From Microbacterium sulfonylureivorans (lineage in GTDB: Bacteria > Actinomycetota > Actinomycetes > Actinomycetales > Microbacteriaceae), in assembly GCF_003999995.1 (NCBI RefSeq), contig NZ_RJAD01000001.1:2046001-2110000 (forward strand): a DNA stretch of 64,000 nt, in the 5' to 3' direction. Numbering within the stretch: position 1 is the stretch's first letter; each line of letters opens with the position of its first letter. This document shows positions 9,058 through 44,114 of the stretch, one piece after another. The position numbers were made by a program, and so were the translations under genes. The notes beneath the pieces are model-generated. The model made no database searches, was not told the DNA's origin, and saw nothing but the letters and a program-made list of their open reading frames with translations.

Positions 9058-9073
9058 GCCCTAAGCTGGGGCG

Positions 9074-9925: not shown

Positions 9926-10019
9926 CGTGCTCACCGGCTCCGACGGCCGCGATCCCGCCGTGGCTAGACTGACCGGACCACCGCGAGAGGCCTCGAGCCT
10001 CGACCACACAGGGGGATGG

Positions 10020-10610: not shown

Positions 10611-11763
10611 GCAGACGATCGGTGACCGTCACGCCCACACGCTCCCACCTGTCGCCGCCGTTCTCGCTCGCCAGGCTCGCGGCCTCGCGCGCCATGTAGA
10701 GCAGCGCATCGAGGTCGTAGCCCACGACCGACACCGGTGCCCACCCGGCGCTCGCCGAGGGACGGATCGGGAGGCGGATGTCGACCTCGAGAGACGAGAT
10801 GCGGTCCAGCACCATGCGCAGGTGGTCGCGGACGACCGCGTCGGTGCGCGGCACCAGGACGACAGCAGTGCCCGGCGTGGGGGTCCCGACATCCGCCTCC
10901 GCCGGGAACACCGCTCGGACTTCGTCGAGGAAGCGCGTCGAGAGCGCGGACAGGGCCACGGAGCCCGCCATCTGGCGGATCTCCTTGGCGTCGTCCAGAC
11001 GCAGGTACACGATCGACCACGGTTCGGCGGACATCTTCGCGCGCGCGAGCCGCTCCGTGGCGGTGAGCTCGAACCGACGCCATCCCTCGGGGGCACCTGA
11101 CGAACGCGCCAGCGCGGTATCGCGGGTCGAGATCCCGACGACCGCGACGAGGGCGCACGCCATGTAGACGAGCATCCCGATCGACGTCACGAGCCGTACC
11201 AGCGCGAGGTCGTCGCCCGTGGTGGGCGGGAAGAGGAAGCCGGCGATCGCATTCGCGGCACCGACGATGAAGAACACGAGCGAGACGATGGCGAACGGGA
11301 GCGTCACGCGGTCTCGGCGCGCCGGAACACGGATCCAATCGAGGAAGTACAGACCCGCGAACGCCGACGCCGCGAAGAACACGGCGCGGTAGGCGGGGCT
11401 GAACCACACCGTCTCGCCGGCGGCGACCAGCAGGGCCGCCGAGACCACGCTGACGACGGGACCGATCCACGGCAGCGCGCGCACACCCCACAGTGCGCGG
11501 AAGCCCGACCACAGCAGGGCCGGCGCTCCCATCAGCAGGCCGAGGAAGATCCGCCGCGCGGTCTCGGACCCGTTGAGCTCGCCCGCCAGCACGCCGAAGG
11601 TCGACACCATGGCGAGGGCGAAGGCGAATGACCAGTACAAGGTCGCGCGGGACGGCTTCGAAAGGAACGCGACCCCGATGGTGAGCATCGTCGCGAGCGT
11701 CGCGATCGCGGCCTGCGCGATCCCGAGGCCCATGCCGGCCGTGATGGCGACGATCTCGTTCAT
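10588..11763 (-). CDS. membrane protein with degenerate GGDEF-like cytoplasmic domain
   Basis: 391 residues. About seven TM helices occupy residues 10-225. The cytoplasmic remainder follows the GGDEF pattern in outline: VYLRLDDAKEI resembles the metal/ribose strand, GTAVVLVPRTDA takes the place of the GGDEF loop, and ASAGWAPV sits where ASIGVA normally does. The GG(D/E)EF signature itself is absent, so diguanylate cyclase activity is unlikely; binding or scaffolding is possible. The ATG overlaps the histidine kinase stop (ATGA), so the two are co-translated. I infer a partner of the kinase controlling the nearby glycosyltransferase. Confidence 0.75.
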   Translation of the reverse strand: MNEIVAITAGMGLGIAQAAIATLATMLTIGVAFLSKPSRATLYWSFAFALAMVSTFGVLAGELNGSETARRIFLGLLMGAPALLWSGFRALWGVRALPWIGPVVSVVSAALLVAAGETVWFSPAYRAVFFAASAFAGLYFLDWIRVPARRDRVTLPFAIVSLVFFIVGAANAIAGFLFPPTTGDDLALVRLVTSIGMLVYMACALVAVVGISTRDTALARSSGAPEGWRRFELTATERLARAKMSAEPWSIVYLRLDDAKEIRQMAGSVALSALSTRFLDEVRAVFPAEADVGTPTPGTAVVLVPRTDAVVRDHLRMVLDRISSLEVDIRLPIRPSASAGWAPVSVVGYDLDALLYMAREAASLASENGGDRWERVGVTVTDRLLNPLQRS

Positions 11764-13412: not shown

Positions 13413-13465
13413 GCAGCGAGTCTACTGAGCCCCGTCGCCCGGGCGCGGGCGGCACGGCGGTGCGG

Positions 13466-13498
13466 GCTTGCGCTTGCCTTGCGGGAACCTTGCGCAAG
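13466..13498. promoter_or_regulatory. three tandem 11-bp repeats, candidate PhoB/OmpR-type operator
   Basis: CTTGCG occurs at 13467, 13478 and 13489, exactly 11 bp apart, each followed by a variable 4-5 bp spacer. A fourth copy at 13533 is 44 bp (4 x 11) further on. Direct repeats with 11-bp period are how OmpR/PhoB-family regulators are commonly laid out on DNA, and one such regulator is encoded at 15148-16059. The last repeat ends in the palindrome CTTGCGCAAG. Confidence 0.6.
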
Positions 13499-13591
13499 AA
13501 GCGAGCCGACGTCCGGCCAGCACACGGCTTCGCTTGCGATCCGCCTGGCACCGTGGAACCCGTCAGCCAGACAAGACCCGAAAGACTCGAG

Positions 13592-15040
13592 ATGACCACC
13601 ATCACCACCCCCGCACGCAGCACCGACCTCGTGGTCGCGCCCACCGTCGCCGGATTCCCGGACGACTTCGAGGCCGTGCTCGACGGCGCCTCGGTGAACC
13701 GGTCGACGATCGGCTGCGTCATCCCCGCGTACAACGAGGAGGAGTCGATCGCCGGTGTGATCGAGTCGCTCCTCGGGCAGACCCGCGTGCCCGACGTGAT
13801 CCACGTCGTCGTCAACAACACGTCCGACGCGACCGTCCGGATCGCGTCGCGGTACGCAGGCCCGCACGAGGTCGCCACCGACCTCGGCGAGCAGTTCACC
13901 GAGGTGTTCGTCCATGACATCGGCAAGAACCCCGACAAGAAGGTCGGCGCGCTGAACTACGGCTACACGCTGGTCGAGGGCTACGACTACCTGCTCGGCG
14001 TCGACGGCGACACCGTGGCCGACCAGAAGGCCGTCGAGTATCTCGAGTCGGAGGCCATGTCGGACACCCGCATCGGCGGTATCTCGGCGATCTACTCGAT
14101 CGACGACAAGCCGGTGAAGGGTCTCGTCGGCAAGTTCCTCACCACCGGACAGCGGTCGCAGTTCGCCGCCTTCAACATGCACAACCTGCTGCGAGGCCGC
14201 AACATGGCGGTCCTCGGCGGTCAGTTCTCGATCTTCTCGACTCAGGCGCTGCGCGAGGTCATGGCGCAGAACCACCAGTCGACGCCCTGGGTCAAGGACA
14301 GCGAGGTCGAGGACTCGCTCCTCTCGCTGCAGATCAAGAGCGCCGGCTACCTGACGAAGATCAGCCCGTTCGCCCGCGCCGACGTGGGCGGCATGACGAC
14401 GCTGCGCGCGCTCGACGCCCAGCAGGTCAAATGGACGTACGGCGCGATCGAGCTCATGTGGCCCGGCCAGCGCGGCGACACCAAGGGCCAGCCGTTCCAC
14501 CCGAACCTGCGCGTGCGCTGGCTCGAGAACTTCGCCATGCTGACGAACCTCTTCGTCCGCGTCGCCTTCCTGGCACTGCTCGCGGGGTCGCTCTCGATCG
14601 GCGCCTTCGTCTTCTCCGCCTGGTGGCTCGTGCCCGTGGCGATCGCGATCATGCTGAACCTGCGCATGGCGATGTCGATGGGGAACCGCAACGTCCGCGA
14701 CATCCTCTTCGCCGTCACGTTCTTCCCTGCCGAGGTCTACATGTGGGTGCGTCTCGCGCACTTCGCCCGGTCGTGGACGCGGTTCCTCTCGCGCAAGAAG
14801 GTCGACAACTGGGCGATGCAGGCCAAGGCCGAGCGCGGTGCCGGGCTCGGGCACTGGACGCCGCTCATCGTCATCATCGCCGTCGTCGTCGCAATGGTCG
14901 CCGCCTGGTCGATGCTCGGACCGGTCGCGCAGTCGACCGTCCTGTGGATCGGCTGGCCGATCGTGGGCGTCGTGACGATCGTCCAGACGCTCGGCATGTT
15001 CTTCAAGCTCATCCGTCGACAGCACGGATACAAGGTCTGA
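13592..15040 (+). CDS. processive family 2 glycosyltransferase (beta-glucan synthase-like)
   Basis: 482 residues. The cytoplasmic GT-A domain opens with GCVIPAYNEEESIAGVIESL and carries LLGVDGDT (DxD equivalent, near 138), EVEDSLLS (the acid of the TED motif) and QQVKW (QxxRW equivalent, near 277), the set found in cellulose, hyaluronan and curdlan-type synthases. Four or five C-terminal TM helices follow (about 310-475). No PilZ domain is present. The ATG at 13592 follows a purine-rich site and gives a normal N-terminus. A GH6 glucanase next door suggests a beta-1,4-linked product, but the sugar cannot be fixed from sequence. Confidence 0.88.
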   Translation: MTTITTPARSTDLVVAPTVAGFPDDFEAVLDGASVNRSTIGCVIPAYNEEESIAGVIESLLGQTRVPDVIHVVVNNTSDATVRIASRYAGPHEVATDLGEQFTEVFVHDIGKNPDKKVGALNYGYTLVEGYDYLLGVDGDTVADQKAVEYLESEAMSDTRIGGISAIYSIDDKPVKGLVGKFLTTGQRSQFAAFNMHNLLRGRNMAVLGGQFSIFSTQALREVMAQNHQSTPWVKDSEVEDSLLSLQIKSAGYLTKISPFARADVGGMTTLRALDAQQVKWTYGAIELMWPGQRGDTKGQPFHPNLRVRWLENFAMLTNLFVRVAFLALLAGSLSIGAFVFSAWWLVPVAIAIMLNLRMAMSMGNRNVRDILFAVTFFPAEVYMWVRLAHFARSWTRFLSRKKVDNWAMQAKAERGAGLGHWTPLIVIIAVVVAMVAAWSMLGPVAQSTVLWIGWPIVGVVTIVQTLGMFFKLIRRQHGYKV

Positions 15041-31796: not shown

Positions 31797-31846
31797 CGGC
31801 CCAGCCTACGGCGGTGCCCGGGATGGGGCCGACGGCCCCCGTGTAC

Positions 31847-31859
31847 CCCCTACCCCTAG
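31847..31859 (+). promoter_or_regulatory. paired CCCCTA boxes upstream of the Asp/Asn/Ser-rich genes
   Basis: CCCCTA occurs at 31847-31852 and again at 31853-31858 in the 198-bp gap before the gene at 31995. The same hexamer, in the same orientation relative to its gene, occurs twice before the IniB-like gene (38959-38964 and 38994-38999, minus strand). A shared regulator site is an inference. Confidence 0.35.
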
Positions 31860-31994
31860 AGGCGGGGCCCGACGGAAACCCCCGCCGCCTGCCCGGCGTT
31901 CCAGGGATGGATCCCCGATGTGCCGTGCGCGACGCGCTCCTACGGTGTAGCCATCAGCAGATATCGGGGCATGCCCCGGGATTGGGAAGGGCTC

Positions 31995-32915
31995 ATGCCT
32001 ATCGAGATCAACGACTTCGACGATTCGTTCAACACGCGGGTCAGGGACTCGTTCAACTCGTCGAGCACCAACACGGCCAACCTCGGGGTGGACCTCGACA
32101 ACGTGGGGAACTCCGACAGCTCGGTGAACGACAGCGGGAACGTCGATGTCGGTGTGGCCGACTCGTTCAATGAGGACTCGCATGACGTCGACATGGACAC
32201 CGACGTCGACATCGACGACTCCTTCAATGACAAGTCCGACAATTCCACCGACGATCACACCGACAACTCGACCGATGACTCCCACAACGACAACTCCGAG
32301 AACTGGGTCAAGGACTCCTACAACACGTTCACGGACAGGTCCGTCGACGACCACTCGATGAATGCCGGCGGACGCACGTACAACGTCGGGATGGGCGACG
32401 TCTCGCTGGGCGGTGCGGGCGGAGCCGCTGCGGCGGCCCGAGCCGGCGCAGGTGCGGCCGGCGGCACGTCGATCGAGAGCCACAACACGATCGTCGACCA
32501 GTCCGTCAACGCGAACATCCTCGGCGGCGGCGTGCATGCGTACTCCGCCAGCGACGCCGTGGTCGCATCGGGGGACGACTCCATCGCAGCGGGTGACGAC
32601 GTGGACATCGAGACGCGGGTCGACAACTCGACCGTGATCGCCGGAGGAGGGGACGTGAACGTCGGCAACGAGACGACGATCTCCAACGTCGTCGGCTCGT
32701 ACAACTCGTGGGAGGACAACTCGACCGACGAGGACAACTCCGTCGACGTTGACATCGACGACTCGTGGAACGACTACTCCGACACCTACACGGCGACGGA
32801 CTCGTTCAACGAGACGAACGACCTCTCGGCGGCGTTCGACGTCGACGTCGATGTCAACGCGATCGTCGACAGCAGCGACTCCGCAATCGTGGACGACCTC
32901 GACGTCGGGCTCTGA
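31995..32915 (+). CDS. Asp/Asn/Ser-rich repeat protein 1 with DQSVN-VGN module
   Basis: 306 residues, very acidic and rich in Asp, Asn, Ser, Thr and Val with almost no Lys, Cys or Pro. DSFN-type tetrads (DSFN, DSYN, DSWN) recur every 10-30 residues, and DNSTDDHTDNSTDD is an internal repeat. Residues ~140-160 are Gly/Ala-rich. Residues ~168-228 form a module (DQSVNANI, DAVVASGDDSIAAGDDVDI, VGNET) shared with the next gene and with the IniB-like protein at 38065. There is no signal peptide or TM helix, so it is probably cytoplasmic, perhaps a beta-rich fibre or scaffold. ATG behind GGGAAGGG. No named family is recognised. Confidence 0.85.
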   Translation: MPIEINDFDDSFNTRVRDSFNSSSTNTANLGVDLDNVGNSDSSVNDSGNVDVGVADSFNEDSHDVDMDTDVDIDDSFNDKSDNSTDDHTDNSTDDSHNDNSENWVKDSYNTFTDRSVDDHSMNAGGRTYNVGMGDVSLGGAGGAAAAARAGAGAAGGTSIESHNTIVDQSVNANILGGGVHAYSASDAVVASGDDSIAAGDDVDIETRVDNSTVIAGGGDVNVGNETTISNVVGSYNSWEDNSTDEDNSVDVDIDDSWNDYSDTYTATDSFNETNDLSAAFDVDVDVNAIVDSSDSAIVDDLDVGL

Positions 32916-33005
32916 TCCGCCTCACCCGGCTCGGCGATGCCGTCGAGCCGGGAACCCGCACCCAGAGCCGGCGCGGCGCGTCGGCCCGAAGAGAAGGACT
33001 ATGAC

Positions 33006-33908
33006 ATGGCAATCGACGACATCGACGAATCGTTCAACGTGCGTGTGCGCGACTCGTTCAACTCCACCTCGGCGAACACAGCCAATATCACCGCCGACCT
33101 GCAGAACGTCGGCAACACGGACGATTCGACGAACGACAGCGGCAACACCGCGGTCGATCTCGACGGATCCTTCAACGAGGACTCCCACGACATGGACCTC
33201 GACACCGACGTCGACGTGGAGGACTCGTTCAACGATGAATCCGACAACTCGACCGATGACCACACCGACAACTCGACCGACGACTCGTACAACGACAACT
33301 CCGACAACTCGGTGGACGACTCGTACAACAGCTGGACGGATGCATCGACGGACGACCATTCGACGAATGCGGGTGCGCGCACCTACAACGCGGGCATGGG
33401 CGACGTATCCCTCGCCGGCGCCGCGGGCGGCGGGGGCGGCGCGCTCCACGTCAGCAGCCACAACACGGTCGTCGACCAGTCCGTCAACGGCAACGTCGCC
33501 GCGTTCGGCGGGGTGGGGCTGGTGTCCAAGAGCGACGCGGTCGTCGCGTCCGGTGACGGCGCGATGGCGGCAGGGGACGACATCGACATCCACCAGAGCC
33601 TGGACGAGTCGACGACGATCCTCGGCGGGGACGATGTGAACGTGGGCAACACCACCTCGATCTCCAACGTCCTTCACTCCCACAACTCCGCGACGGACAA
33701 CTCGACGAGCACCGACAACTCGTGGGACGTGGACATCGACGGCTCGTTCAACGACGACTCCGACTCCTACACGGCGACGAACTCGTTCAACGAAGAGCTC
33801 ACATCGATCAACGAGAGCGACTGGGATGTCGATGCCAACGTGATCTGGGACAGCGAGGATTCGGTCGTCGTCGACGATGTCGACGTCGACCTCGACCTGC
33901 CGGGGTGA
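33006..33908 (+). CDS. Asp/Asn/Ser-rich repeat protein 2, paralogue of protein 1
   Basis: 300 residues, aligned to protein 1 along its whole length: it starts with the same DDSFN/DESFN tetrads, has the DNSTDDHTDNSTDD run, a Gly-rich joint (~145-155) and the DQSVNGNV to VGNTT module (~157-218). The paralogue differs most in the Gly-rich joint and the C-terminus. It lies 90 bp after protein 1, with AGAAGGA before its ATG, and is followed by a terminator. The two genes look like a tandem duplication kept in use rather than a decaying copy. Confidence 0.85.
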   Translation: MAIDDIDESFNVRVRDSFNSTSANTANITADLQNVGNTDDSTNDSGNTAVDLDGSFNEDSHDMDLDTDVDVEDSFNDESDNSTDDHTDNSTDDSYNDNSDNSVDDSYNSWTDASTDDHSTNAGARTYNAGMGDVSLAGAAGGGGGALHVSSHNTVVDQSVNGNVAAFGGVGLVSKSDAVVASGDGAMAAGDDIDIHQSLDESTTILGGDDVNVGNTTSISNVLHSHNSATDNSTSTDNSWDVDIDGSFNDDSDSYTATNSFNEELTSINESDWDVDANVIWDSEDSVVVDDVDVDLDLPG

Positions 33909-33948
33909 TGGGGCACCCTGCGCACTCGGATTCACATCTGGGGAGACA

Positions 33949-33977
33949 GCTCTGGGCCGGCGATGCCGGCCCAGAGC
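33949..33977 (+). terminator. terminator after the Asp/Asn/Ser-rich gene pair
   Basis: Perfect 13-bp arms (33949-33961 and 33965-33977) with a GAT loop. It separates the gene pair from the dynamin operon, which would then need its own promoter in the 88 bp that follow (TAGCGT at 34020 is a possible -10). Confidence 0.8.
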
Positions 33978-34065
33978 CGTCGCATCGGGACTTTCGGACC
34001 GCGGGCGCCCGGAACGCGCTAGCGTGTGCTCGTACAGGGCGAAACCGCCGCCGAAGGAGTCGCCG

Positions 34066-35967
34066 GTGACTCAGAGCCTCCCCGGGAAGCCTGGCCGTGA
34101 CATATCCGTCCCGGCAGAGTCCGATCGCGCCCGATCGCTCGCCGCGGCCGATGCGAAGCCCCTGCTGGAGCTCGTGCGCAAGGCACGGGCTCTCGCCGAC
34201 TCCGCCGGGCGCGCCGATCTGACGCGGCGCCTCGACGACACGCGCGCCAGGCTCGAGGATCCGCACGTCCGGGTGATCGTCATCGGCCAGTTCAAGCAGG
34301 GCAAGAGCAAGCTCGTCAACGCGCTGATCAATGCCCCTGCCTGTCCCGTCGACGACGACCTGGCCACCAGCGTCCCCACGTCGGTGGGCTATGCGGAGAC
34401 CCCTTCGGCGGTCGTCCTGCTGCGCAGGGAAGGCCCCTCGGGACCGGTCATCGAGCGGTTGCCGATTCCGATCGACGACGTCGCACGCTACGTCTCGGAG
34501 GGAGGCGACCGCAGCGACGCCGACATCGTGGGGGCTGAAGTCTTCCTGCCCCGAGAGCTCCTCAAAGGCGGGCTCCGACTCGTCGACTCGCCCGGCGTCG
34601 GCGGCCTCGAGTCAACCCGTTCGCTGAGCACGCTCGCGGCGATGTCGACCGCGCACGCCGTGCTCCTCGTCTCCGATGCGTCTCAGGAGTACACCGAGCC
34701 CGAGGTGCAGTTCCTCCGCCACGCGATGCGCATGTCGCCGAACGTCGGCGCCGTGCTGTCCAAGACGGACATCTATCCCGAATGGCGGCAGATCGAGGAG
34801 ATCGACCGATCGCACCTCAGCGAGGTCGGTGACGTGCCCATCTTCCCGATCTCGAGCGACCTGCGCATCCTCGCCGCCGAAGAGCAGGACCGCGAGTTGA
34901 ACGAGGAGTCGGGATTCCCGTCTCTGGTCGCGCACCTGCGGCGGGACGTGATGGGGCGCGCAGAGCTCCTCCATCGGCGCGCCGCGGTCCACGACGTGTC
35001 GTCGGTGTCCGAACAGCTTCTGCTGGCGGTGCGGACCGCGCTCAACGCGCTCCTCAACCCCGAGGACACACCGCGGATGATCGCCAAGCTCGAGGACGCG
35101 AAGTCGCGCGCGGACGAGTTCCGCAGCCGCAGTTCGCGATGGCAGGTCACCCTGAGCGACGGGGTCGCGGATCTCATCGCCGACACCGAGCACGACTTGC
35201 GCGATCGCCTGCGAAAGGTGCAGCGCGAAGCCGAGACCGCCATCGACGAGGGGGACCCCGGCCCGATCTGGGACCAGATCGCCGCCTGGCTGGATCGGCG
35301 TGTCTCGGCGGCGGTATCCGAGACGTTCGTCTGGACGAACGAGCGGGCTCAGTGGCTGTGCGAGCAGGTCGCCGTGGAGTTCGCGGCGGCGGAGTCATCC
35401 CTCCCCTACATCGATGTCGCGAGCACCGAGAGCGTGCTCGAACCGGTCGAGGCGCTCCAGACGCTCGAGGAGGGCCGGCTGGGCGCAGCCGAGAAGATCT
35501 ACATCGGCGTGCGCGGATCGTATGGCGGCGTGCTGATGATGGGACTGGCCACCAGCCTCGTCGGCCTGTCGCTGATAAACCCGCTGTCCCTTCTCGTGGG
35601 CGTGGTCGTGGGAAGACGCGCGTACCGCGAGGATCGGTCCGCTCGGCTCACCCGCCGGCAGGCGGAGGCGAAGAACCTCGTGCGCCGGCACATCGAGGAC
35701 GTGGTGTTCCAGGTCGGCAAGCAGCTCAAGGACCGGCTCCGTTTCGTGCAGCGCGCCGCCCGAGATCATTTCGGCGCGATCGCCGACGAGCTCCATCGCT
35801 CGCTGGCGGATTCGGTCGCAGCGGCGAAGCAGTCGGCCGTGACGTACACGGCCGAGCGTGACACGCGGGTGCGACAGCTCCAGGCGCAGCAGGCGAGGAT
35901 CGAGGCCCTGCGCGCGGAGATCCCGCAGCTCGAGCGGCCGGAGCACGCGGGGGCGGGTCAGCGGTGA
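34066..35967 (+). CDS. dynamin-family GTPase, IniA-like
   Basis: 633 residues from a GTG 6 nt behind GAAGGAG. GTPase motifs: G1 GQFKQGKSKL (K80, S81), a Thr-containing switch after VDDDLATSVPTS, G3 DSPGVGG (D174), G4 SKTD (K233, D235). A long helical stalk follows, interrupted at about 487-517 by a hydrophobic hairpin (VLMMGLATSLVGLSL) that can act as the membrane paddle, then a coiled-coil tail. The layout matches bacterial dynamin-like proteins, and with the adjoining second GTPase and nearby IniB-domain gene it matches mycobacterial IniA, a membrane-remodelling GTPase linked to cell-envelope stress. GTGA overlap with the next gene. Confidence 0.88.
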   Translation: MTQSLPGKPGRDISVPAESDRARSLAAADAKPLLELVRKARALADSAGRADLTRRLDDTRARLEDPHVRVIVIGQFKQGKSKLVNALINAPACPVDDDLATSVPTSVGYAETPSAVVLLRREGPSGPVIERLPIPIDDVARYVSEGGDRSDADIVGAEVFLPRELLKGGLRLVDSPGVGGLESTRSLSTLAAMSTAHAVLLVSDASQEYTEPEVQFLRHAMRMSPNVGAVLSKTDIYPEWRQIEEIDRSHLSEVGDVPIFPISSDLRILAAEEQDRELNEESGFPSLVAHLRRDVMGRAELLHRRAAVHDVSSVSEQLLLAVRTALNALLNPEDTPRMIAKLEDAKSRADEFRSRSSRWQVTLSDGVADLIADTEHDLRDRLRKVQREAETAIDEGDPGPIWDQIAAWLDRRVSAAVSETFVWTNERAQWLCEQVAVEFAAAESSLPYIDVASTESVLEPVEALQTLEEGRLGAAEKIYIGVRGSYGGVLMMGLATSLVGLSLINPLSLLVGVVVGRRAYREDRSARLTRRQAEAKNLVRRHIEDVVFQVGKQLKDRLRFVQRAARDHFGAIADELHRSLADSVAAAKQSAVTYTAERDTRVRQLQAQQARIEALRAEIPQLERPEHAGAGQR

Positions 35968-37505
35968 AGCACGCAGCCCTCGGCGACATGTCCACGATCG
36001 TCGCTCGGCTCCGTGAGACGTACGCCGACGACCGCGCCGCGCTGGAGGTGCTGGACGCGTGTGAGCGCAGACTGCGCGAGCCCTTGCGGATCGGGATCGC
36101 CGGGATGGTCAAGGCAGGGAAGTCGACGCTGCTCAACGCGCTGATCGGCGAGCGGATCGCACCGACGGACGCGGGTGAGTGCACGCGCACCGTGACCTGG
36201 TACCGTCACGGTCCGACGGCGCGCGTCACCGTCCATCTGCGGGACGGATCGACCGAGCGCATGCCCGTACGACGCTCGCAGGGCCACCTCGCGCTCGACT
36301 TGGGTGACCTCCGGGCCGACGAGGTCGAGTGGATCGACGTCGAGTGGCCGTCCGAGAGCCTGCGATCGATCGTCCTCATCGACACTCCGGGAATCGCATC
36401 GCTCTCGGCTGACGTGTCGGCTCGGACGATCTCGTTCCTCACGCCATCCCGCGCGCCGTCCGCGGCCGACGCGATCATCTACCTCCTGCGCCACGTGCAC
36501 GCATCGGACGTGAAGTTCCTCGAGGAGTTCCACGACACCGCGGCGGGTGCGTCCCAGACCGTCAACGCCCTGGCGGTGCTGTCCCGCGCCGACGAGATCG
36601 GGTCGGGCCGGATCGACTCCCTCCTCTCCGCTGCGAAGATCGCCGAACGTTATCGCCGCGACGGGGAGCTGCGGTCGCTCGCCCTCGGCGTGATCCCCGT
36701 GGCCGGGCTTCTGGCGGAGGGCGCGCGCACCCTCCGCCAGAGCGAGTTCGCAGCGTTCCAGACGCTCGCCGGACTGGACCGCGCCCTCCGGACTCGGGCG
36801 CTGATCTCCGTCGATCGCTTCCTGGGCGGCACCGCCGAGATCCCTCTGAGCGTCGCGCAGCGCCGTGACCTTCTCGCACGGTTCGGTGTCTTCGGCGTGC
36901 GGCTCGCGACGGCGCTCGTGCGTGCGGGAGCGCGCACGTCGACCGAACTCGCTGAACGGCTGGTTCAGCAGAGCGGGCTCATCGAGGTGCAGAACTTCGT
37001 GACCGAGCAGTTCCGCGCTCGCGCGAGCTCATTGAAGACCCGTGGCGTCGCGCACACCCTGGAGACGCTCGTCCGCGAGCGGAGGCGTCCCGACGCGGCC
37101 GGACTCCTGCCCGAGATCGAGAGGCTCGCCCTCGGCACGCACGACCTGCGCGAACTCGCGCTTCTGGCAGACCTGCGCACGGGCACTCCGGATCTGTCCG
37201 CCGATGACATTCTCGAGGCCGAGCGCATCGTCGGAGGCGCGGGAACATCCACAGTCGAGCGCCTCGGCTTGACCGAGGGCGCGGATCGGCGCGCCGTCCG
37301 CGAGCGCATCGACCAGCTGCTCACGCGATGGCGGGGGATCGCGGAATCGCCCCTCAGCGAGCGGGCGACCATCGAGATATGCCGCACGGTCACACGCAGC
37401 GTGGAGGGAGTCGCGTCAGAGCTCCCCACTCGCCGTGCTGCTGCCGCCGCCGCTGCCGTTGCGGACGTCGTGACGACGGGCGGTCCAGCGCAGCGCCGGC
37501 GGTAG
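35964..37505 (+). CDS. dynamin-family GTPase, IniC-like
   Basis: 513 residues. G1 is GMVKAGKSTLLNAL (K53, S54), G3 DTPG (D140), G4 SRAD (207-210), where Arg replaces the usual Lys; G2 Thr is in GECTRTVTW. A helical C-terminal half follows, with no clear membrane hairpin. Mycobacterial IniC is likewise the second, smaller GTPase after IniA. The GTG overlaps the IniA-like stop, so a hetero-complex is likely. The last 90 bp overlap the end of the convergent TM gene. Confidence 0.87.
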   Translation: MKHAALGDMSTIVARLRETYADDRAALEVLDACERRLREPLRIGIAGMVKAGKSTLLNALIGERIAPTDAGECTRTVTWYRHGPTARVTVHLRDGSTERMPVRRSQGHLALDLGDLRADEVEWIDVEWPSESLRSIVLIDTPGIASLSADVSARTISFLTPSRAPSAADAIIYLLRHVHASDVKFLEEFHDTAAGASQTVNALAVLSRADEIGSGRIDSLLSAAKIAERYRRDGELRSLALGVIPVAGLLAEGARTLRQSEFAAFQTLAGLDRALRTRALISVDRFLGGTAEIPLSVAQRRDLLARFGVFGVRLATALVRAGARTSTELAERLVQQSGLIEVQNFVTEQFRARASSLKTRGVAHTLETLVRERRRPDAAGLLPEIERLALGTHDLRELALLADLRTGTPDLSADDILEAERIVGGAGTSTVERLGLTEGADRRAVRERIDQLLTRWRGIAESPLSERATIEICRTVTRSVEGVASELPTRRAAAAAAAVADVVTTGGPAQRRR

Positions 37506-38078
37506 CAGGCTGAAGAGCAGTCCCAGCAGTCCCAGAGCGAGCTCCACCCGCAGCAGCTGCTGCAGCGGCGCACCGCGCTCGCCCATCGCAATGAGCTCCT
37601 GTGCCACGAGGTAGACGACGGTCTGCACGATGAGCGACCCGAAGAGCCACCAGCGCACGTTCGGCCGACGGTTGGCGAACGAGACGAGGAACATGATCTG
37701 CAGCGCGATGAGCGACACGGTCAGACCGAACGCCGACCAGAAGAGGATGTCCGCTGTCAGGGTGTAGGTGGCTGCGGCTCGCGATCCGTCGACCGCCTTG
37801 ATCCGATCGACGATGTCGGGATGCTGCGCCTGACGGATGACGAACAGATAGACCACCGCGGCGCCGCCCGCGATCAGGCTGAGGACCCAGAGCACCTGGC
37901 TGATCCGCACGACGAGCGGCGGAGGCAGCTTGACGAGCACAGGCGCGGCCGCCTTGTCGGTCAGCGCAGGGCGTGGGGGAGGTTCGCTCCGCGGATCCGA
38001 CGGCGGCCGCGCCTGTGGAGTCGGCACCGTTTGGCGGCGGCGGCCCCCGCCTGCGGGTGCGAGTTCAGAACTCGTCAT
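37416..38078 (-). CDS. four-TM membrane protein downstream of the IniB-like gene
   Basis: 220 residues. A disordered Pro/Arg-rich N-terminus (~45 residues) is followed by four TM helices (first around VLWVLSLIAGGAAVVYLFVI) and a basic tail. No family recognised. Its ATG lies 14 bp inside the end of the IniB-like gene and lacks its own Shine-Dalgarno, which suggests translational coupling. A GTG at about codon 17 is an alternative start. Its end overlaps the IniC-like gene by 90 bp on the other strand. I infer a membrane partner of the dynamins. Confidence 0.7.
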   Translation of the reverse strand: MTSSELAPAGGGRRRQTVPTPQARPPSDPRSEPPPRPALTDKAAAPVLVKLPPPLVVRISQVLWVLSLIAGGAAVVYLFVIRQAQHPDIVDRIKAVDGSRAAATYTLTADILFWSAFGLTVSLIALQIMFLVSFANRRPNVRWWLFGSLIVQTVVYLVAQELIAMGERGAPLQQLLRVELALGLLGLLFSLLPPALRWTARRHDVRNGSGGGSSTASGEL

Positions 38079-38865
38079 CGGAGGTCGGTTCGACGACGAT
38101 CGCCGTCTCCGTGGTCTCGAACGCGGCGTTCGCGTCGGCCTCTGCGGCGGTCTCGGTGTACGTCGTCGCCGACGAGTCGTACGACACGTCTTCGGCGGTC
38201 TCCGCGGGCTCTGCCGGCTCGGCGGTGGATGTGTCGGTGAACGAGTCCTCGACGGCGACCGTCGTCGATTCGTCTGTGAACGACTCTTCGACGACGACAT
38301 CGGTCGAGGCATCCGTCGTGGTCGACGTGTCGGTCGTCTCGTTGTACGAGTCTTCGACGACGGTCTCGGTCGTCTCGTTGCCGACGACCGCGTCGTTCCC
38401 TGCCGTGATGGTGGTGGAGTTGTCCTCGGTCTGCTCGATAGACACGTCCTCGCCGGCGGCGATGGCCTCGTCGCCGGACGCCACGACGGCCTCCTGGTCG
38501 AAGACCTGCGTCACGTCACCGTCTGCCCAGATGTTCTGGTTCACCGACTGGTCGACGATCGTGTCGCTGTCGTCGATCCAAGCGAAGTTCTGGACCACGT
38601 TGTTGATCTCGCGAACGACGGGATCCGACGACGGCTGTGCCTGGTTCGAACCGCCGTGCGGGTTCGAATGCGGAACGACGGTGGTGCGCTCGACGATGAC
38701 GGGCGTCACTGCGGCGACATCGGCGGCGCTGACGTGTGACAAGCCGCGTGCACTGAGTGCACCGTGCGGATCGTCCTCGAATTCGGCGGCCGCGTCCGGA
38801 TCTCGCAGGAGGCTCAGGATGAATTCGATCAACGCCTCGGCGATGGTCGCGAGAGTCACGCTCAT
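38065..38865 (-). CDS. IniB N-terminal domain protein with DQSVN-VGN module
   Basis: 266 residues. Residues ~1-58 (ALIEFILSLLRDPDAAAEF, then HGALSARGLSHVSAADV) resemble the N-terminus of mycobacterial IniB (ILSLFR, then a Phe/Pro/Ala segment and a Gly-Leu turn), as I recall it. Residues 105-165 (DQSVNQNI, AVVASGDEAIAAGEDVSI, VGNET) are the module found in both Asp/Asn/Ser-rich proteins at 31995 and 33006. The tail is Thr/Glu/Ser-rich with DSYN and DSFT elements echoing DSFN. No signal peptide. A GAGGAGA site precedes the ATG. It is first in a two-gene unit with the TM protein. Confidence 0.85.
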   Translation of the reverse strand: MSVTLATIAEALIEFILSLLRDPDAAAEFEDDPHGALSARGLSHVSAADVAAVTPVIVERTTVVPHSNPHGGSNQAQPSSDPVVREINNVVQNFAWIDDSDTIVDQSVNQNIWADGDVTQVFDQEAVVASGDEAIAAGEDVSIEQTEDNSTTITAGNDAVVGNETTETVVEDSYNETTDTSTTTDASTDVVVEESFTDESTTVAVEDSFTDTSTAEPAEPAETAEDVSYDSSATTYTETAAEADANAAFETTETAIVVEPTSDDEF

Positions 38866-38935
38866 AGTCGTCTCCTCATGCTACAAATCTGTCTCGACCG
38901 TATGGCGATCGGCGGGGTGTCCGCGTCGGGGATTG

Positions 38936-39000
38936 TCCCCCGTCAACCGGGGGGCGACTAGGGGGCCCCCACGTCTTCGTCCTTGCTCCCCTGTAGGGGA
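38936..39000 (-). promoter_or_regulatory. upstream region of the IniB-like gene with GC-rich inverted repeats
   Basis: The 152-bp gap between the LuxR-type gene and the IniB-like gene holds CCCCCG-TCAAC-CGGGGG, an adjacent CTAGGGG (38958-38964) and TCCCCT-GT-AGGGGA (38987-39000). There is a TAGCAT hexamer close to the start but no good -35, as expected of an activator-dependent promoter. The neighbouring LuxR-type STAND ATPase is the likely activator. Confidence 0.4.
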
Positions 39001-39017
39001 AGTGGCCGCCGGCGCGC

Positions 39018-41567
39018 TCATGCGATATCCCTGCCGGCGTGGATCGGTTCTTGAGGGGCGGAGGCATCCTCGAAGACGAGGCGGAGCTTCGCGATGAGAT
39101 CCGAGCGTGACGTCGCGCCGAGTCGGCGACGGATGCGGGCGATGTGGTGCTCTGCGGTCCGGGGGGAGATGAAGATCGACATTCCGATCTCGCTGTACGT
39201 CTTCCCCTGCAGGACGAGGAGCGCGACCTCGCGCTCACGTGCGCTGAGGACCGCGTCGCCGCCGTGTCCCTGAGGGGTGGAAGCGGTCGACAGATCGTCG
39301 CGAGCGTCCGCGGTGTCGTCGCGCGGATGGAGCCGGCGTGCGCACGCCAGCAGGCGCGTGATGTCTCTCCGATCGTCCGAGCGTCCCGCTCCGTGGCCGG
39401 CCAGACGTGCCCCGTCCCAGGCCAGGCCGACATCCGCGAGGCCGAGAGCCGCCTCCTCCACTGCGTCGGGGTCGACGGTGCCCGCGAGGACCGACGTCCA
39501 GACCCGGCCCGCCTGCGCCATGCGCGACGCGAGCCGGCTCTGCGGCGCGACGGCGACGAGAGCCCTGGCGTGGGGTCTGAGCGCATCGGGGCTGTTGGCG
39601 AGGATCCCCCGCTGGATGCCTGCCCAGTGCAGGTGAGCCGACCACAGCGGCGGCGCGCCGAGCCCGTCGAGCAGCGTGACGGCTCGGTCGAAGTGAGCCG
39701 CCACGCGCGTGCTGTCGCCTGCTCTGGCGGCGGCGGTGACGAACTCGGCGAGCGGGAGCAGGGTGAACATGTCGAACTGCGCGTGGAGGATGCCTTCGCG
39801 CGCTCGACGCCAGGTGGCGACCATCGTCGCCTTGTCCTCGTACCGTCTTGCCAGCGCGACGTCTATCGCGTCGTACACCAGGCGGTCCCGAGGGCTGAGG
39901 GGACGACCGGATGTGCGCACGGCGTCGAGACCGCTCATGACCTCGTGCGGCCGCTCGCGCTGCAGGGCCACCCAGGATCGCCAGAGCACGAGCCGATCGC
40001 GTGCCCACGGACCGCCGTGCCCGCCCTCGACGGCGTCCTGGAGAATCGCGTGGCTGACGTCGAGCTCACCGAGGTTGATCGCGGTCAGAGCGGCGATGAC
40101 GGCCGGGAGCTCGGGGATCGGTGCGCCTGTCGCCGAGGCTGTGTACATCTCGCTGGCGCGAACGAGATCGGCGAGCCGGGGATTCGCGGGGTCCGTCAGC
40201 GTCGACCGCAGACCTCGGACGACGAGCTCCAACGAGACATCCAGCGTGGTGGGGATGCCGATTGCTCCCGGTCGGGCCGGAGCCGGTGCCGGGTCGGGCA
40301 GGCACCGGAGCGGATCGGCCGCGCCGAGGGCGGCTATGGCGGCTCTCGCCTGCTGGGCGGCGGTCAGCGGGGGAGTCGCCGCAGCGTAGATCGCGTTCGC
40401 CGTCTCCATCGCACCCCGGGCGGCCCAGATGGCGGCAGCGGTGTCGATCGCATGTTCGCGATCCTCGTCTCCCTCCGGCGCCGGACCGCTGTCCAGCAGT
40501 CGGGCCGCATGGTCTATCTCCCCCAGCGCCCAGGACGCCCCGGCACGTCGCACGGCGACGGTGGCGGCATCCGCCCCGCATTCGCCGGCGCGCCGGAACA
40601 GCTCGCGCGCCCGCGACGGTGCCGAGTCCGCGATGGCGTCGCCTTCGCGCAGGAGCGCCTCGGCGCGTCGTGGGTCCGGCGCCCGTGAGAAGTCCGGAGT
40701 CCACGAGCGGCTTCCGGACGCCTCGTCGATGACCCCGGCGTCGACGAGGCGGTCGAGTGGCGTCGTCGCGCGTACGGCCTGGCGCACGACGGGGACCACC
40801 TCGCCGTTGCGGAGGAGCAGTCCCTCCGCGTGCCCGGCCAGGAGGTGGTCGCGCAACTCCGGTGCGAGCGGCGTCGTGAATCCGGTCGGTCGGAGGCTGA
40901 GCGTCTCGATCGCGGCACGGACCTCGGGATCGAGGCTCAGCATCCGATGCGCGATGACGTCGCCGAGCGCGTCCTCTATCGCGTGGTGATCGGGGTCTGC
41001 CGCGCACGGCTGCCCGTCGTGGATGGCGAACGCCTCGCAGGCAAGCCACGTCGTGCCGCCCGTCATTGCGAGGATGCCTTCGCTGCACGCGGCGTCGAGC
41101 GAGTCGTGGTTCTCGTGGTCGAGGTCGCCGGCGGTGACGTGACCCAGGACGATCGTGGGCTGCGAATGCTCGAGTGAGAGGGCCAGTTCGTGCAGCGGAT
41201 CCGTTTCCGGCCACGGCCGACGAGCGAGGACGATGCTCGAGTCGGGGTCGGCGACCCGGTCGGTGATCCGCGACACCGCCGCCTGGTCGAGGAGCTGGGC
41301 ATCGTCGATGAGGACCACCGTGGTCGCCGGCACATCGACGAGCGGAGATCGCGGACTCAGGAGCAGCGTCTCTCGTCCACTGTCGGCGAGCGATCGCCGG
41401 ATGCGCCTGAGCAACGACGTCTTGCCTGATCCGGCCGGTCCGACGACAAGCCCTCGGGTCGGCTGGTCGGCGGTGGCGATCATCCTCTCGACGTGGGCGA
41501 GGGCGAGTCGTGTCCACCTCACGGGGTTGGCGAGCGGCAGATCGGACTGCGGGTGCGTCGTCGACAT
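39018..41567 (-). CDS. LAL-type LuxR regulator (STAND ATPase with C-terminal HTH)
   Basis: 849 residues. N-terminal ATPase: Walker A VGPAGSGKTSLLRRI (~42-52), Walker B VVLIDDAQLL (~87-96). A long helical TPR-like middle runs to ~760, then a LuxR/GerE HTH at about 770-830 (LSAREREVALLVLQGKTY, ISPRTAEHHIARIRRRLGA). Such MalT-like regulators bind a small ligand or protein, then activate transcription. Mycobacterial iniBAC is, as I recall, also under a STAND-type ATPase (IniR), which strengthens the parallel. It follows the Hsp70-like gene by 21 bp, so they share a transcript. Confidence 0.9.
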   Translation of the reverse strand: MSTTHPQSDLPLANPVRWTRLALAHVERMIATADQPTRGLVVGPAGSGKTSLLRRIRRSLADSGRETLLLSPRSPLVDVPATTVVLIDDAQLLDQAAVSRITDRVADPDSSIVLARRPWPETDPLHELALSLEHSQPTIVLGHVTAGDLDHENHDSLDAACSEGILAMTGGTTWLACEAFAIHDGQPCAADPDHHAIEDALGDVIAHRMLSLDPEVRAAIETLSLRPTGFTTPLAPELRDHLLAGHAEGLLLRNGEVVPVVRQAVRATTPLDRLVDAGVIDEASGSRSWTPDFSRAPDPRRAEALLREGDAIADSAPSRARELFRRAGECGADAATVAVRRAGASWALGEIDHAARLLDSGPAPEGDEDREHAIDTAAAIWAARGAMETANAIYAAATPPLTAAQQARAAIAALGAADPLRCLPDPAPAPARPGAIGIPTTLDVSLELVVRGLRSTLTDPANPRLADLVRASEMYTASATGAPIPELPAVIAALTAINLGELDVSHAILQDAVEGGHGGPWARDRLVLWRSWVALQRERPHEVMSGLDAVRTSGRPLSPRDRLVYDAIDVALARRYEDKATMVATWRRAREGILHAQFDMFTLLPLAEFVTAAARAGDSTRVAAHFDRAVTLLDGLGAPPLWSAHLHWAGIQRGILANSPDALRPHARALVAVAPQSRLASRMAQAGRVWTSVLAGTVDPDAVEEAALGLADVGLAWDGARLAGHGAGRSDDRRDITRLLACARRLHPRDDTADARDDLSTASTPQGHGGDAVLSAREREVALLVLQGKTYSEIGMSIFISPRTAEHHIARIRRRLGATSRSDLIAKLRLVFEDASAPQEPIHAGRDIA

Positions 41568-41588
41568 GAGTGTTCGCGGTGATCGGCG

Positions 41589-43529
41589 TCAGAGGGCGGT
41601 AGCGGTCGCGTCACCCGGCAGAACGTCGGGCGGGGGCTCGGTTTCGTGCGCGGGCCCGGTGTCTGCGGGAGACGCCTGCGTGTCGTCCGGAGGCGCGTCG
41701 GGAGTGGGGTCGGCGGGTGGAGGATCCGGCGTGTCGTCCGGCGTCGGGTCGGCGGCGGCCGGGTCAGGCGGCGCGTCCGGAGACGTCGCCGCCGGAGTAG
41801 GCGCGGGCTCGGGGAGCGACGGTTCGGCCGCGGGCTCTGTCGACGCCGGTTCCGGATCGAGCACGGCCGGCGCCGGCTCGGGGGCGGGGTCGCTCGGCCC
41901 CCGAGGTTCGGCGATTTCGCCGCCTGTGGCCGGCTTCGGCGCGGGCCGGGGAGCGCTCGCCGTCGGCGGCGGAGTCTGCTCCCGGGCGGGCGTCGCGGCG
42001 ACCGTCCGACGTCCTGCCGACGGCGTCGCGCCACCGCTGGTCCGCCCTGTGGCGGGAGGTCGTTCCGTGAGATCATCGGCGACCCGGCTCCGCCCGGGCG
42101 CCGGGTACGGCAGCGCACCGGGTGATGCATCGGGCGGCGCGTCCAGGGCGCCCGTCTCGTACTCGCCGAGTTCCGAGCGGTCCGCAATGCCGAGCCCGGC
42201 GCTCGCCCCGGGCGGGCCGGTCGAAGCATCTGACGCCGACGCCAGATCAGCCCGGGTCGGAAGCGCCGGTATCCCCAGTGCGGTCGCGGTCGTCACGACC
42301 AGCCCGCCTGCGAGGGCGAGTGCGGTGCCCGTGGTGTACGCGGATGCGGGCACGCGTCGGAACCATCTCCGACGTGACGCACCGGTGTCGGCGGGCGCAG
42401 TCTCCTCGACGGCCGCGACGGCGACGACCTCGTCGACGGCGGGTTCGCCGACAAGCCGGCGCTCCGCGGCGATGCGGGCTGCGCCGAGCGCCGCGATCGC
42501 CTTCGGATCGGCATCGACGGCGATCGGACGATCGAAGCGCTCGGACAGAAGCTGCGCCACGCGGGGGATCCGGGACGAACCGCCGATCAGGAGAATCGCA
42601 TCGATCTCCTCGCCGTCGAGGCCGGTGCTCTCCAGGGCCTGGGCGAATCGGTCGATGGTCCGTTCGATGTCCTTTTCGATCATCGCCTCGAACTCTCCCC
42701 GAGTGAGACGGACGGAGCCGTGACTGCCCTGCACGAGGACCGGGATGACCGCTTCGCCGTCGTACGAGAGCGCCTCCTTCGCATCCACGCATTCCCGGCG
42801 CAGCGCGGCGAGACCGAGGTAGGCGCTCGGGTCGCTGTCACGTATGTCGATGCCCGCCGCCGCCACGACATGCCGGAACACCGCGTCGTCGAAGTCGGCG
42901 CCGCCGAAGTCGTTCATTCCGGTCGGATCGCCCGCTGTCTCGAGCCGACCTGTCGCCGACTTGCGCATGACGACGGCGTCGAACGTTCCCCCGCCGAGAT
43001 CGTAGACGGCGAGCGCGTGATGAGCGGGGAGGGGTGTCGAGTCCTCGTACTGGTGCGCAGCCGCCTCGGGAACCGAGAGCACGTCGACGTCCGGCCAGCC
43101 CTCGCGGGCGAGGGCCGCACGGATGAGGTCGCGTCTGTACTCGCCCCATGCCACCGGAACGGTGACGGCCAGAGCCGAGGGCGATGCCCCCTTCTGCGCG
43201 GTGACGGAGTCGACGACCCAGGCGATCATCCGCGCGAAGAGGTCTTCGGCCGCGAGTCGGCGATCTCCCGCGATGATCGGGACGTCGTCGCCGACTCGGC
43301 GGGAGAAGTCGCGGACGAGCCGTCCGGGATTGCCCGGGCCACGCCGCTCGGCGGCGTCGCCGAACATCACCTCCCCCTCCGCCACGAAGGCAGCGCTCGG
43401 GGCGGTATCGGCGACTCGGCCGAGACGGAACGGCATCATGAGAGCATCGCCGTTCGGCGACAGATGAGCAGTTGCTGCGGCGGTGCGACTCGTTCCCACG
43501 TCGACGGCAACACAGTACGGCGCTGTCAT
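41589..43529 (-). CDS. membrane-anchored Hsp70-family ATPase with Pro-rich tail
   Basis: 646 residues. Residues 1-~365 are an Hsp70/actin-fold ATPase: VAVDVGTSRTAAA (phosphate 1), YDLGGGTFDAVV (phosphate 2), LLIGGSSRIPRVAQLL (adenosine motif). No substrate-binding domain follows. Instead there is one TM helix (~395-420, TTGTALALAGGLVVTTATAL) and a ~220-residue Pro/Ala/Asp-rich tail, presumably outside the cell. It would be a tethered ATPase rather than a classic chaperone. It is the first gene of the operon with the LuxR-type regulator. Confidence 0.88.
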   Translation of the reverse strand: MTAPYCVAVDVGTSRTAAATAHLSPNGDALMMPFRLGRVADTAPSAAFVAEGEVMFGDAAERRGPGNPGRLVRDFSRRVGDDVPIIAGDRRLAAEDLFARMIAWVVDSVTAQKGASPSALAVTVPVAWGEYRRDLIRAALAREGWPDVDVLSVPEAAAHQYEDSTPLPAHHALAVYDLGGGTFDAVVMRKSATGRLETAGDPTGMNDFGGADFDDAVFRHVVAAAGIDIRDSDPSAYLGLAALRRECVDAKEALSYDGEAVIPVLVQGSHGSVRLTRGEFEAMIEKDIERTIDRFAQALESTGLDGEEIDAILLIGGSSRIPRVAQLLSERFDRPIAVDADPKAIAALGAARIAAERRLVGEPAVDEVVAVAAVEETAPADTGASRRRWFRRVPASAYTTGTALALAGGLVVTTATALGIPALPTRADLASASDASTGPPGASAGLGIADRSELGEYETGALDAPPDASPGALPYPAPGRSRVADDLTERPPATGRTSGGATPSAGRRTVAATPAREQTPPPTASAPRPAPKPATGGEIAEPRGPSDPAPEPAPAVLDPEPASTEPAAEPSLPEPAPTPAATSPDAPPDPAAADPTPDDTPDPPPADPTPDAPPDDTQASPADTGPAHETEPPPDVLPGDATATAL

Positions 43530-43552
43530 GGATGTCCTGCCCCCAGGGTTCG

Positions 43553-43576
43553 GACCTGAGCCCGACGGCTCAGGTC
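43553..43576. promoter_or_regulatory. 10-bp inverted repeat in the Hsp70-like 5' region
   Basis: GACCTGAGCC and its complement GGCTCAGGTC flank a 4-bp CGAC spacer, 24 bp upstream of the Hsp70-like start. A third half-site, GGCTCAGGTC, lies at 43638-43647. This may be an operator or an mRNA leader hairpin for the Hsp70-like/LuxR operon. Confidence 0.45.
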
Positions 43577-43709
43577 AGGTCTACCACCTCGCGCCGCGCT
43601 TGGCGAGAGGGGTGGGCACGCCTGAGAGGAGGCGCGGGCTCAGGTCCTGATACCTCTGCCCGCGAGATTTCCCGCCGCTCGCGCGACTGCGCCACACGGC
43701 GTCATGCGG

Positions 43710-43755: not shown

Positions 43756-43782
43756 TTAGCACTCTCAGCATGCGGGTGCTAA
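43756..43782 (+). promoter_or_regulatory. CIRCE operator 2 (HrcA)
   Basis: TTAGCACTC-N9-GGGTGCTAA, one mismatch from the CIRCE consensus, directly downstream of the -10 and about 36 bp before groES. Confidence 0.88.
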
Positions 43783-43817
43783 CGAGTCTTCAGTCTCAAG
43801 GAAAGAAGAGGTAGACC

Positions 43818-44114
43818 GTGTCGGTTTCCATCAAGCCGCTCGAGGACCGCATCGTCATCAAGCAGGTCGAGGCCGAGCAGACCACCGCGAGTGGCCTCGT
43901 CATCCCCGACACCGCCAAGGAGAAGCCCCAGGAGGGTGAAGTCGTCGCCGTCGGCCCCGGCCGCATCGACGACAACGGCAACCGCGTCCCGCTCGACGTC
44001 GCCGTCGGCGACCGCGTGCTCTACAGCAAGTACGGCGGGACCGAGGTCAAGTTCGGCGCCGACGAGTTCCTCGTCCTGTCCGCTCGCGACGTCCTGGCGG
44101 TCGTCGTCCGCTGA
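43818..44114 (+). CDS. groES: co-chaperonin GroES
   Basis: 98 residues, full GroES length. [18 protein letters not shown] is the N-terminal strand, [18 protein letters not shown] the mobile loop that binds GroEL, and [11 protein letters not shown] is also conserved. It caps the GroEL chamber. GTG start behind AAGGAAAG. No groEL follows: a strong terminator and then rarD come next, so its partner must be encoded elsewhere. Heat-shock control by HrcA is indicated by the two CIRCE sites. Confidence 0.97.

Follow-up and report, generated by a model that had tools for sequence, protein, structure and literature searches.

In mycobacteria, the iniBAC operon has long served as a classic marker of damage to the cell wall. 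According to Boot et al. 2017 (PMC5760070), the mycobacterial locus is Rv0339c-Rv0343, iniBAC is activated by IniR, a small gene, iniB*, lies between iniR and iniBAC, and a dnaK-like gene sits beside iniR in M. smegmatis; the same work reports that the mycobacterial homologues respond to cell-wall inhibitors, and infers from RNA-seq that IniB is produced in excess over IniA and IniC. Of three other papers, one describes M. smegmatis IniA (6j72/6j73) as a membrane-fission dynamin (PMC6715688), one ties iniBAC to envelope permeability and drug tolerance in mycobacteria (PMC13413693), and a review states that vesicle levels in M. tuberculosis fall when iniAC is lost (PMC11077946). Here, we describe a related locus in Microbacterium sulfonylureivorans, located within a 64-kb stretch of contig NZ_RJAD01000001.1 (positions 2,046,001 to 2,110,000), referred to as the window. 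The locus contains two dynamin genes, iniA and iniC, a homologue of iniR, a gene with an IniB domain (IniB-like), an Hsp70-like gene, two genes for Asp/Asn/Ser-rich proteins (DNS1 and DNS2) and a gene for a protein with four transmembrane (TM) helices (TM4).

We suggest, with a probability of roughly 60%, that this is a non-mycobacterial, extended iniBAC-type envelope-stress system, in which two arms would be co-regulated and the Hsp70-like protein would be a core partner of the dynamins. The eight genes recur together and behave as one unit, with a single exception, and the membrane-anchored Hsp70-like ATPase appears to accompany the dynamin pair throughout the phylum.

Gene content and identities

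The open reading frames of the window agree with the preliminary description, which had listed eight neighbouring genes in two convergent arms with a GTGA overlap between iniA and iniC. All eight are intact at 31995-43529. The plus arm has the order DNS1, DNS2, iniA, iniC and the minus arm the order hsp70, iniR, IniB-like, TM4. The last genes of the two arms, iniC and TM4, overlap convergently by 90 bases, and TM4 overlaps its own upstream neighbour, the IniB-like gene, by 14 bases. The features are as follows; the start adopted for each gene is the first coordinate on the plus strand and the second on the minus strand.

31995..32915, plus: DNS1, Asp/Asn/Ser-rich, IniB relative without the IniB N-terminal domain, in the iniA-side position (IniB-like protein 51% identical across 117 aa)
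33006..33908, plus: DNS2, paralogue of DNS1 (60% identity over 316 aa)
34066..35967, plus: IniA, dynamin-like GTPase (Dynamin_N 8.4e-17; 6j72 446.9 bits; hydrophobic stretch 498-516)
35964..37505, plus: IniC, second dynamin-like GTPase (Dynamin_N 4.5e-14; GTGA overlap with iniA)
37416..38078, minus: TM4, membrane protein with four predicted TM segments, co-present with IniR and IniA
38065..38865, minus: IniB-like protein with helical N-terminal domain, DQSVNQNIW module and tail predicted to be disordered (NF038175, alignment, model confidence)
39018..41567, minus: IniR homologue with AAA-type ATPase part, middle region and LuxR DNA-binding domain (NF038181, GerE)
41589..43529, minus: Hsp70-like ATPase with nucleotide-binding domain, one TM segment (402-420) and Pro-rich tail (partial PF00012)
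31846..31920, plus: candidate promoter element of the dynamin arm (CCCCCTA 31846-31852; CCCCGATG 31913-31920)
38924..38965, minus: candidate promoter element of the iniB/TM4 arm (CCCCCTA 38959-38965; CCCCGACG 38924-38931)
31811..43709, no strand: whole unit, absent at the same site in two genomes of the genus, G106 (L150) and G433 (L151)

IniA is related over its length to M. smegmatis IniA, matching the structure 6j72 over residues 33-612. Its likely start is the GTG at 34066, preceded by GGAG; a longer frame from 33877 exists and would overlap DNS2 by 32 bases. IniC also resembles bacterial dynamins and provides the adjacent second dynamin of an iniBAC-IniR system; it is found in all 80 loci that were collected around IniA (see below).

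The LuxR protein is homologous to IniR, which activates iniBAC in mycobacteria. Both halves of the protein align to IniR in the genome search, and the match to NF038181 has an E-value of 1.8e-103 and a score of 347.5 bits, where the equivalog cut-off is 750; the IniR of a mycobacterial-type locus, L124, scores 1414.9 bits. The preliminary description had assigned the protein to the LAL/STAND regulators. The LuxR half of this assignment holds, as a GerE domain is found at the C-terminus (2.5e-13). The STAND half is matched weakly in Pfam, where no STAND or NACHT domain scores above its gathering threshold (nSTAND_NTPase5 21.7 against 34, NACHT 17.1 against 26.7). The AAA-type P-loop is matched, with AAA_30 barely attaining its own 27-bit cut-off.

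The IniB-like protein passes the profile of the IniB N-terminal domain, NF038175, with 68.6 bits against a cut-off of 40, and stays below the cut-off of the Rv0340 (iniB*) equivalog NF038176 (46.2 against 100 bits). In the structural model the N-terminus is ordered and helical, with block means of the predicted local distance difference test (pLDDT) of 89-95 over residues 11-60, and confidence is low beyond, 42-53 from residue 101 onward. A Foldseek search of the model against the PDB found nothing at E <= 0.001, only a weak likeness (E 3.2) to a RiPP precursor in its helical part. The DQSVNQNIW module is conserved in alignment A6, which covers 32 of the 80 IniB-domain frames listed. The tails of IniB-type proteins, by reading, vary between lineages: the tail is Gly-rich in L128 and pentapeptide-like in L132, while L136 and L140 carry a VASGDG module like that of the window.

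Neither DNS1 nor DNS2 matches any Pfam or NCBIfam family. The 51% identity (E 1e-20) that DNS1 shares with the IniB-like protein, a shared module that had already been proposed, shows that the DNS proteins are related to IniB but lack its helical N-terminal domain. Their occurrence follows the layout of the locus. D/N/S-rich frames are flagged in 49 of 51 loci with opposed arms and in 2 of 19 collinear ones. With the IniB-domain gene on the opposite arm, the D/N/S-rich genes take the place before iniA, while in the collinear layout the IniB-domain gene itself occupies the iniA-side position held by DNS1 in the window.

TM4 matches no Pfam or NCBIfam family up to E 0.1. It is modelled as a confident four-helix membrane protein (mean pLDDT 85.9), and Foldseek finds no PDB structure resembling the model at E <= 0.001. 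Alignment A7 covers 38 of the 81 TM4 frames listed. In a sample of 396 genomes from the phylum, TM4 is listed in only two, both of the genus of the window, and the stretches flanking IniA across the phylum add one marginal frame of 19 bits (L133). TM4 thus looks like a younger, lineage-bound part.

Overall, the NF038175 match, the TM predictions, the Dynamin_N matches and PF00012 support the earlier identification of the IniB-domain, four-TM, dynamin and membrane-anchored Hsp70-like proteins.

The genes occur as one unit with recurrent neighbours

Co-occurrence was studied in 120 genomes of the family, including that of the window, with an IniR threshold of E <= 1e-20. The profile search scored a limited number of first candidates per genome (for IniR 8 in the family and 2 in the phylum; for TM4 26 and 7), so absences are not proof. 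The IniR homologue is present in 9/120 genomes. Strong IniA matches and strong TM4 matches (187-276 bits) are found in the identical nine. Three other genomes have weak IniA matches (63-69 bits) and three have marginal TM4 matches (20-22 bits); these were too weak to be counted as members. The Hsp70 type (>290 bits) occurs in 11/120, i.e., the nine plus G056 and G118, where its neighbours are a response-regulator gene and a frame weakly matching the IniC profile. The genes are contiguous in the eight relatives of the window among the nine, except in G044, where the contig breaks within iniA, and TM4 and the remainder of iniA are on another contig.

A scan of named genomes anchored on IniA, from which the best 80 of 449 relatives were kept, gives the same picture. 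These loci are mostly from Microbacterium, but also from Agromyces, Arthrobacter, metagenome-assembled genomes of Propionibacteriaceae and others. All six core families (IniA, IniC, TM4, the IniB domain, IniR and Hsp70) are found in 60/80, and in 18 of the remaining 20 the sequence available on one side of iniA is shorter than 8 kb. When at least 8 kb is available on both sides, 45/47 loci have all six, or 46/47 if the Hsp70 of L042 is counted. In L042, Hsp70 and iniR share one open frame; a fusion was rejected, as this frame crosses a stretch of N. The iniR gene is in reach in 70 loci, of which 51 are opposed and 19 collinear in layout; hsp70 is located immediately before iniR in both layouts. 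The same set thus recurs in the same order in many genomes, which rules against a chance grouping.

In the phylum sample, IniR (E <= 1e-30) is found in at least 15 genomes and IniA (E <= 1e-60) in 19, and the 15 are all within the 19. The IniR count is a lower bound, as an IniR-like gene of 194 bits in G232 (L141) is outside the list.

The unit can also be absent as a whole. In G106, of the same genus, the sequences that flank the unit in the window (to 31810 and from 43710) are ~33 bases apart. In G433, also of the genus, they are ~100 bases apart, and the THUMP-groES segment is inverted as a block with respect to the outer left flank. In G460 (L123) the unit is present and has the same neighbours on both sides. 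From the co-presence, the conserved order and these two absences it is clear that the eight genes behave as one unit, as the preliminary description had proposed. A random scatter of dynamins without the other genes, which would have spoken against the unit, is not seen within the family: strong IniA matches are in exactly the nine genomes that have IniR and TM4. L032 is one counter-example. In this locus (Microbacterium sp. Leaf151) DNS1, DNS2, iniA and iniC are kept, and the similarity to L035 and L036 ends directly after iniC.

The neighbours of the unit are conserved as well. Among 130 loci (L018-L147), 34 have a GroES match and 34 a THUMP-like match; most of these records carry Microbacterium in the title. 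As in the window, groES lies beyond hsp70 in 29/34, while in five loci (L060, L067, L073, L074 and L076) it separates the THUMP-like gene from the DNS gene. In the window, the right neighbour of the cluster is groES (43818-44114, plus strand), with a CIRCE-like inverted repeat directly 5' of it; the two together occupy 43756-44114. One record, L027, is titled Planococcus sp.; its IniA, GroES and layout are Microbacterium-like, and the title is probably wrong. A mobile island was considered and rejected, given the same neighbours in many Microbacterium loci and no integrase among the eight proteins in the Pfam search. No direct or inverted repeat of 10 or more bases common to both borders of the unit was found. 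The patchy presence is better explained if the unit has one set location, from which it was lost or where it was, rarely, gained.

This distribution also bears on the idea that the locus repairs membranes attacked by phages or bacteriocins rather than serving a general envelope-stress response. Bacterial dynamins can protect against membrane damage, the unit is patchy, with 9/120 family genomes, and IniA resembles the dynamins LeoBC (62.8 bits) and LeoA (58.7 bits) of PADLOC. However, besides the dynamins PADLOC gives only a helix-turn-helix-level match to the IniR homologue (18.4 bits), the recurrent THUMP-like and groES neighbours in Microbacterium are not a defence island, and the response of the mycobacterial homologues to cell-wall inhibitors (PMC5760070) fits the general stress response better. 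We find the anti-phage explanation quite improbable.

The two arms share a candidate promoter element

In loci with opposed arms, that of the window among them, the regions 5' of DNS1 and of the IniB-like gene were screened without bias for 8-mers against random stretches of the same loci. The top 8-mer, CCCCGATG, is found in 25/54 of the regions before the IniB-like gene and in 18/41 of those before DNS1, with 0.84 and 0.64 expected. The pattern CCCCGA[CT]G is found upstream of the IniB-like gene in 39/54 and of DNS1 in 18/41 opposed loci, and upstream of the IniB-like gene in 11/25 collinear loci; dinucleotide shuffles have means of 3.0, 2.4 and 1.8 and maxima of 9, 5 and 5. Within the same loci the pattern is almost missing before four further genes: hsp70 0/47 and 0/22, iniA 2/54 and 0/25, iniC 0/78 and DNS2 0/14; before iniR it is found in 4/48, with a shuffle mean of 10.2. 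A second string, CCCCCTA, has counts of 19/54, 12/41 and 8/25, the last equalled by the other strand (8/25).

In the window the two strings form the pairs 31846/31913 on the plus strand and 38965/38931 on the minus strand, with CCCCGA[CT]G located 74 bases before DNS1 and 58 bases before the IniB-like gene. Searched as spaced pairs (gaps of 27-57 and 31-60 bases), each is found once in the genome, before one of the two leader genes. In mycobacterial-type and deep loci CCCCGA[CT]G is scattered, so we make no claim about a promoter element there. As the leader genes share an element that is not enriched before hsp70, iniR, iniA, iniC or DNS2, co-regulation of the arms is predicted. The arms are probably co-regulated.

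The Hsp70-like ATPase accompanies the dynamins

The Hsp70-like protein matches PF00012 (1.6e-35) over profile positions 105-373 of 599, which gives it the nucleotide-binding domain. The match stops there, and no substrate-binding domain was matched. Instead, a single TM segment is predicted at residues 402-420, followed by a Pro-rich tail. This architecture is general: among the Hsp70 frames of the clusters that score above 250 bits, 74/79 have at least one TM segment in the tail and 71 have exactly one.

In the phylum sample, an Hsp70-like gene is located on the same contig within 10 kb of IniA in 17 of the 19 IniA genomes, including two where a full IniR was not found, G155 (L142) and G150 (L145). 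In G460 the Hsp70-like gene near IniA has no predicted TM segment. The one near IniA in G395 also lacks it and resembles the housekeeping dnaK, while a cluster-type Hsp70 and iniR are near the end of another contig of this genome. In 28 chosen genomes there are 2-6 Hsp70 profile matches per genome, housekeeping dnaK included, so proximity to IniA by chance would be rare. The Hsp70 therefore looks like a partner of the dynamins and not like a sensor alone. This phylum-wide association of a membrane-anchored Hsp70-like ATPase with the dynamin pair is the most notable new point of the analysis.

The preliminary description had seen in this protein the sensor of the system. Its outer Pro-rich tail would then sense damage to the wall or membrane, and its ATPase would hold IniR inactive until such damage occurs. 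Several observations agree with this. The gene shares its strand with iniR, which follows after 21 bases in the window, and directly precedes it in both layouts, the tail is anchored in nearly all cluster frames (see above), and the absence of CCCCGA[CT]G before hsp70 is what a standing sensor would predict. However, the Hsp70 stays with the dynamin genes where IniR was not found, i.e., in L142 (IniA-IniC-Hsp70) and L145, and also in L146 and L147, where at ~7800-14600 a remote IniA-like dynamin, an Hsp70-like gene with a TM segment and a second, IniC-like dynamin are consecutive on one strand. Further, Hsp70 and iniR are kilobases apart in L134-L137, L139 and L140, although they are neighbours in L138. 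We regard the sensor role as possible but unlikely; the partnership with the dynamins is preferred.

Other loci show variants of the Hsp70-like gene. In the mycobacterial-type loci L124 and L125 there is one on either side of iniR, both with a TM segment. The protein at L141:13426-15810 has a BON domain after the TM segment, which fits an envelope-facing tail. The L146 and L147 stretches have a D/N/S-rich frame close by (Pfam check on L146). In L148 and L149, which lack a strong IniA, a ~270-bit Hsp70-like gene is next to a gene for a response regulator and to a frame that matches the IniC profile weakly; L148 additionally has a histidine-kinase-like gene.

A possible mechanism

We suggest the following sequence of events for an iniBAC-type envelope-stress system. 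The hsp70-iniR pair would be expressed at a base level. Envelope damage would activate the IniR homologue, whose mycobacterial relative answers to cell-wall inhibitors and trehalose, and the activated protein would bind the promoter element and turn on both arms jointly. As GTP-driven dynamins, IniA and IniC would bind to the plasma membrane and cut it, in the manner of M. smegmatis IniA (PMC6715688). TM4 could be the membrane seat for the dynamins or the IniB proteins, and the acidic, disordered IniB and DNS proteins could form a multivalent scaffold. The Hsp70-like protein would have a one-TM anchor with the ATPase in the cytosol and the Pro-rich tail outside, a topology that is predicted. 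Its most likely task would be to drive, at the membrane, the assembly or release of the complex of dynamins and IniB; it may also report the state of the envelope to IniR.

The output could also be of another kind. If the locus were a vesicle-making machine, membrane vesicles would be its main product and the IniB and DNS proteins their cargo or coat. The host envelope is of another kind than that of M. tuberculosis, which speaks against this. In favour are the lower vesicle levels upon loss of iniAC in M. tuberculosis (as summarised in PMC11077946) and the excess of IniB over IniA and IniC, itself inferred from RNA-seq in PMC5760070. We consider the vesicle explanation rather unlikely for this locus, and retain the envelope-stress system.

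A wider speculation, also rather unlikely, is that a membrane-anchored Hsp70 without substrate-binding domain is a dedicated ATP-driven partner of dynamin pairs across Actinomycetota. It could work as in Hsc70-type remodelling of membrane coats, with disordered IniB as the coat; control by IniR could then have been added later, and the iniBAC of M. tuberculosis could be a reduced form.

Several observations weigh against the envelope-stress system as proposed. The IniR homologue reaches less than half of the equivalog cut-off (347.5/750), so its inducer may differ, and mycolates are very probably absent from the host. In L032 the dynamin arm is present and the minus arm is missing. G169 and one of the two IniA copies of G353 have no Hsp70 in the stretch examined (L143, where the contig stops 2.8 kb past IniA, and L144), and conversely G056 and G118 carry a similar Hsp70 without a strong IniA. 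The motif counts were made from start codons picked by a script, and their strength is overstated, as the loci are related and the counts are not independent. CCCCGA[CT]G is also found on the other strand in 10/54 and 7/41 of the opposed regions and in 1/25 of the collinear ones, CCCCCTA is found before hsp70 in 4/47 opposed loci (shuffle mean 0.7), and a reversed-pattern control gave one genome match per spaced-pattern search, equal to the pattern itself.

Comparison with known systems

What is new here is the status of the genes as a unit, the DNS proteins as IniB relatives, the candidate element shared by the leader genes and the company of Hsp70 and dynamins. The system is not confined to mycobacteria, and the parts that travel with it can be named, the Hsp70-like ATPase foremost. 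A shared promoter element and a two-arm regulon are predicted, and the environmental hosts, in which deletion of the complete unit is feasible, make the roles of IniB-type proteins and Hsp70 in bacterial membrane remodelling testable.

Among other known proteins, DnaK and HscA have the nucleotide-binding domain in common with the Hsp70-like protein, in which a TM helix and a Pro-rich tail replace their substrate-binding domain. LeoA and LeoBC are bacterial dynamin-like GTPases as IniA is, with a weak profile match; they are not known to have IniR, IniB, Hsp70 or TM4 partners.

The locus is like mycobacterial iniBAC-IniR in having IniA, IniC, the IniB N-terminal domain, an IniB-domain gene by iniR and an IniR homologue. 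As in M. smegmatis, a dnaK-like gene adjoins iniR (PMC5760070). It differs in that its IniR is below the equivalog cut-off and its host is outside the mycobacteria. The same-strand order iniB-iniA-iniC is not found either: the IniB-domain gene is on the opposite strand, that of iniR, with the four-TM gene after it, the two arms converge, and the D/N/S-rich DNS1 and DNS2 precede iniA at the place of iniB.

The preliminary description had credited mycobacterial iniBAC with only one low-complexity protein and two dynamins, and had taken the LuxR, IniB-domain and Hsp70-like parts for additions peculiar to this locus. This has to be corrected, as iniR, iniB* and the dnaK-like gene of M. smegmatis are described in PMC5760070, and the three parts belong to the known or wider iniBAC neighbourhood. 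The preliminary description was right in what it observed, and its unit with probably linked arms is supported; its peculiar extras are not supported, and its sensor is unlikely. As the other parts are published around mycobacterial iniBAC, what remains as extras of the Microbacterium locus is TM4, DNS1 with DNS2, and the arrangement in two arms.

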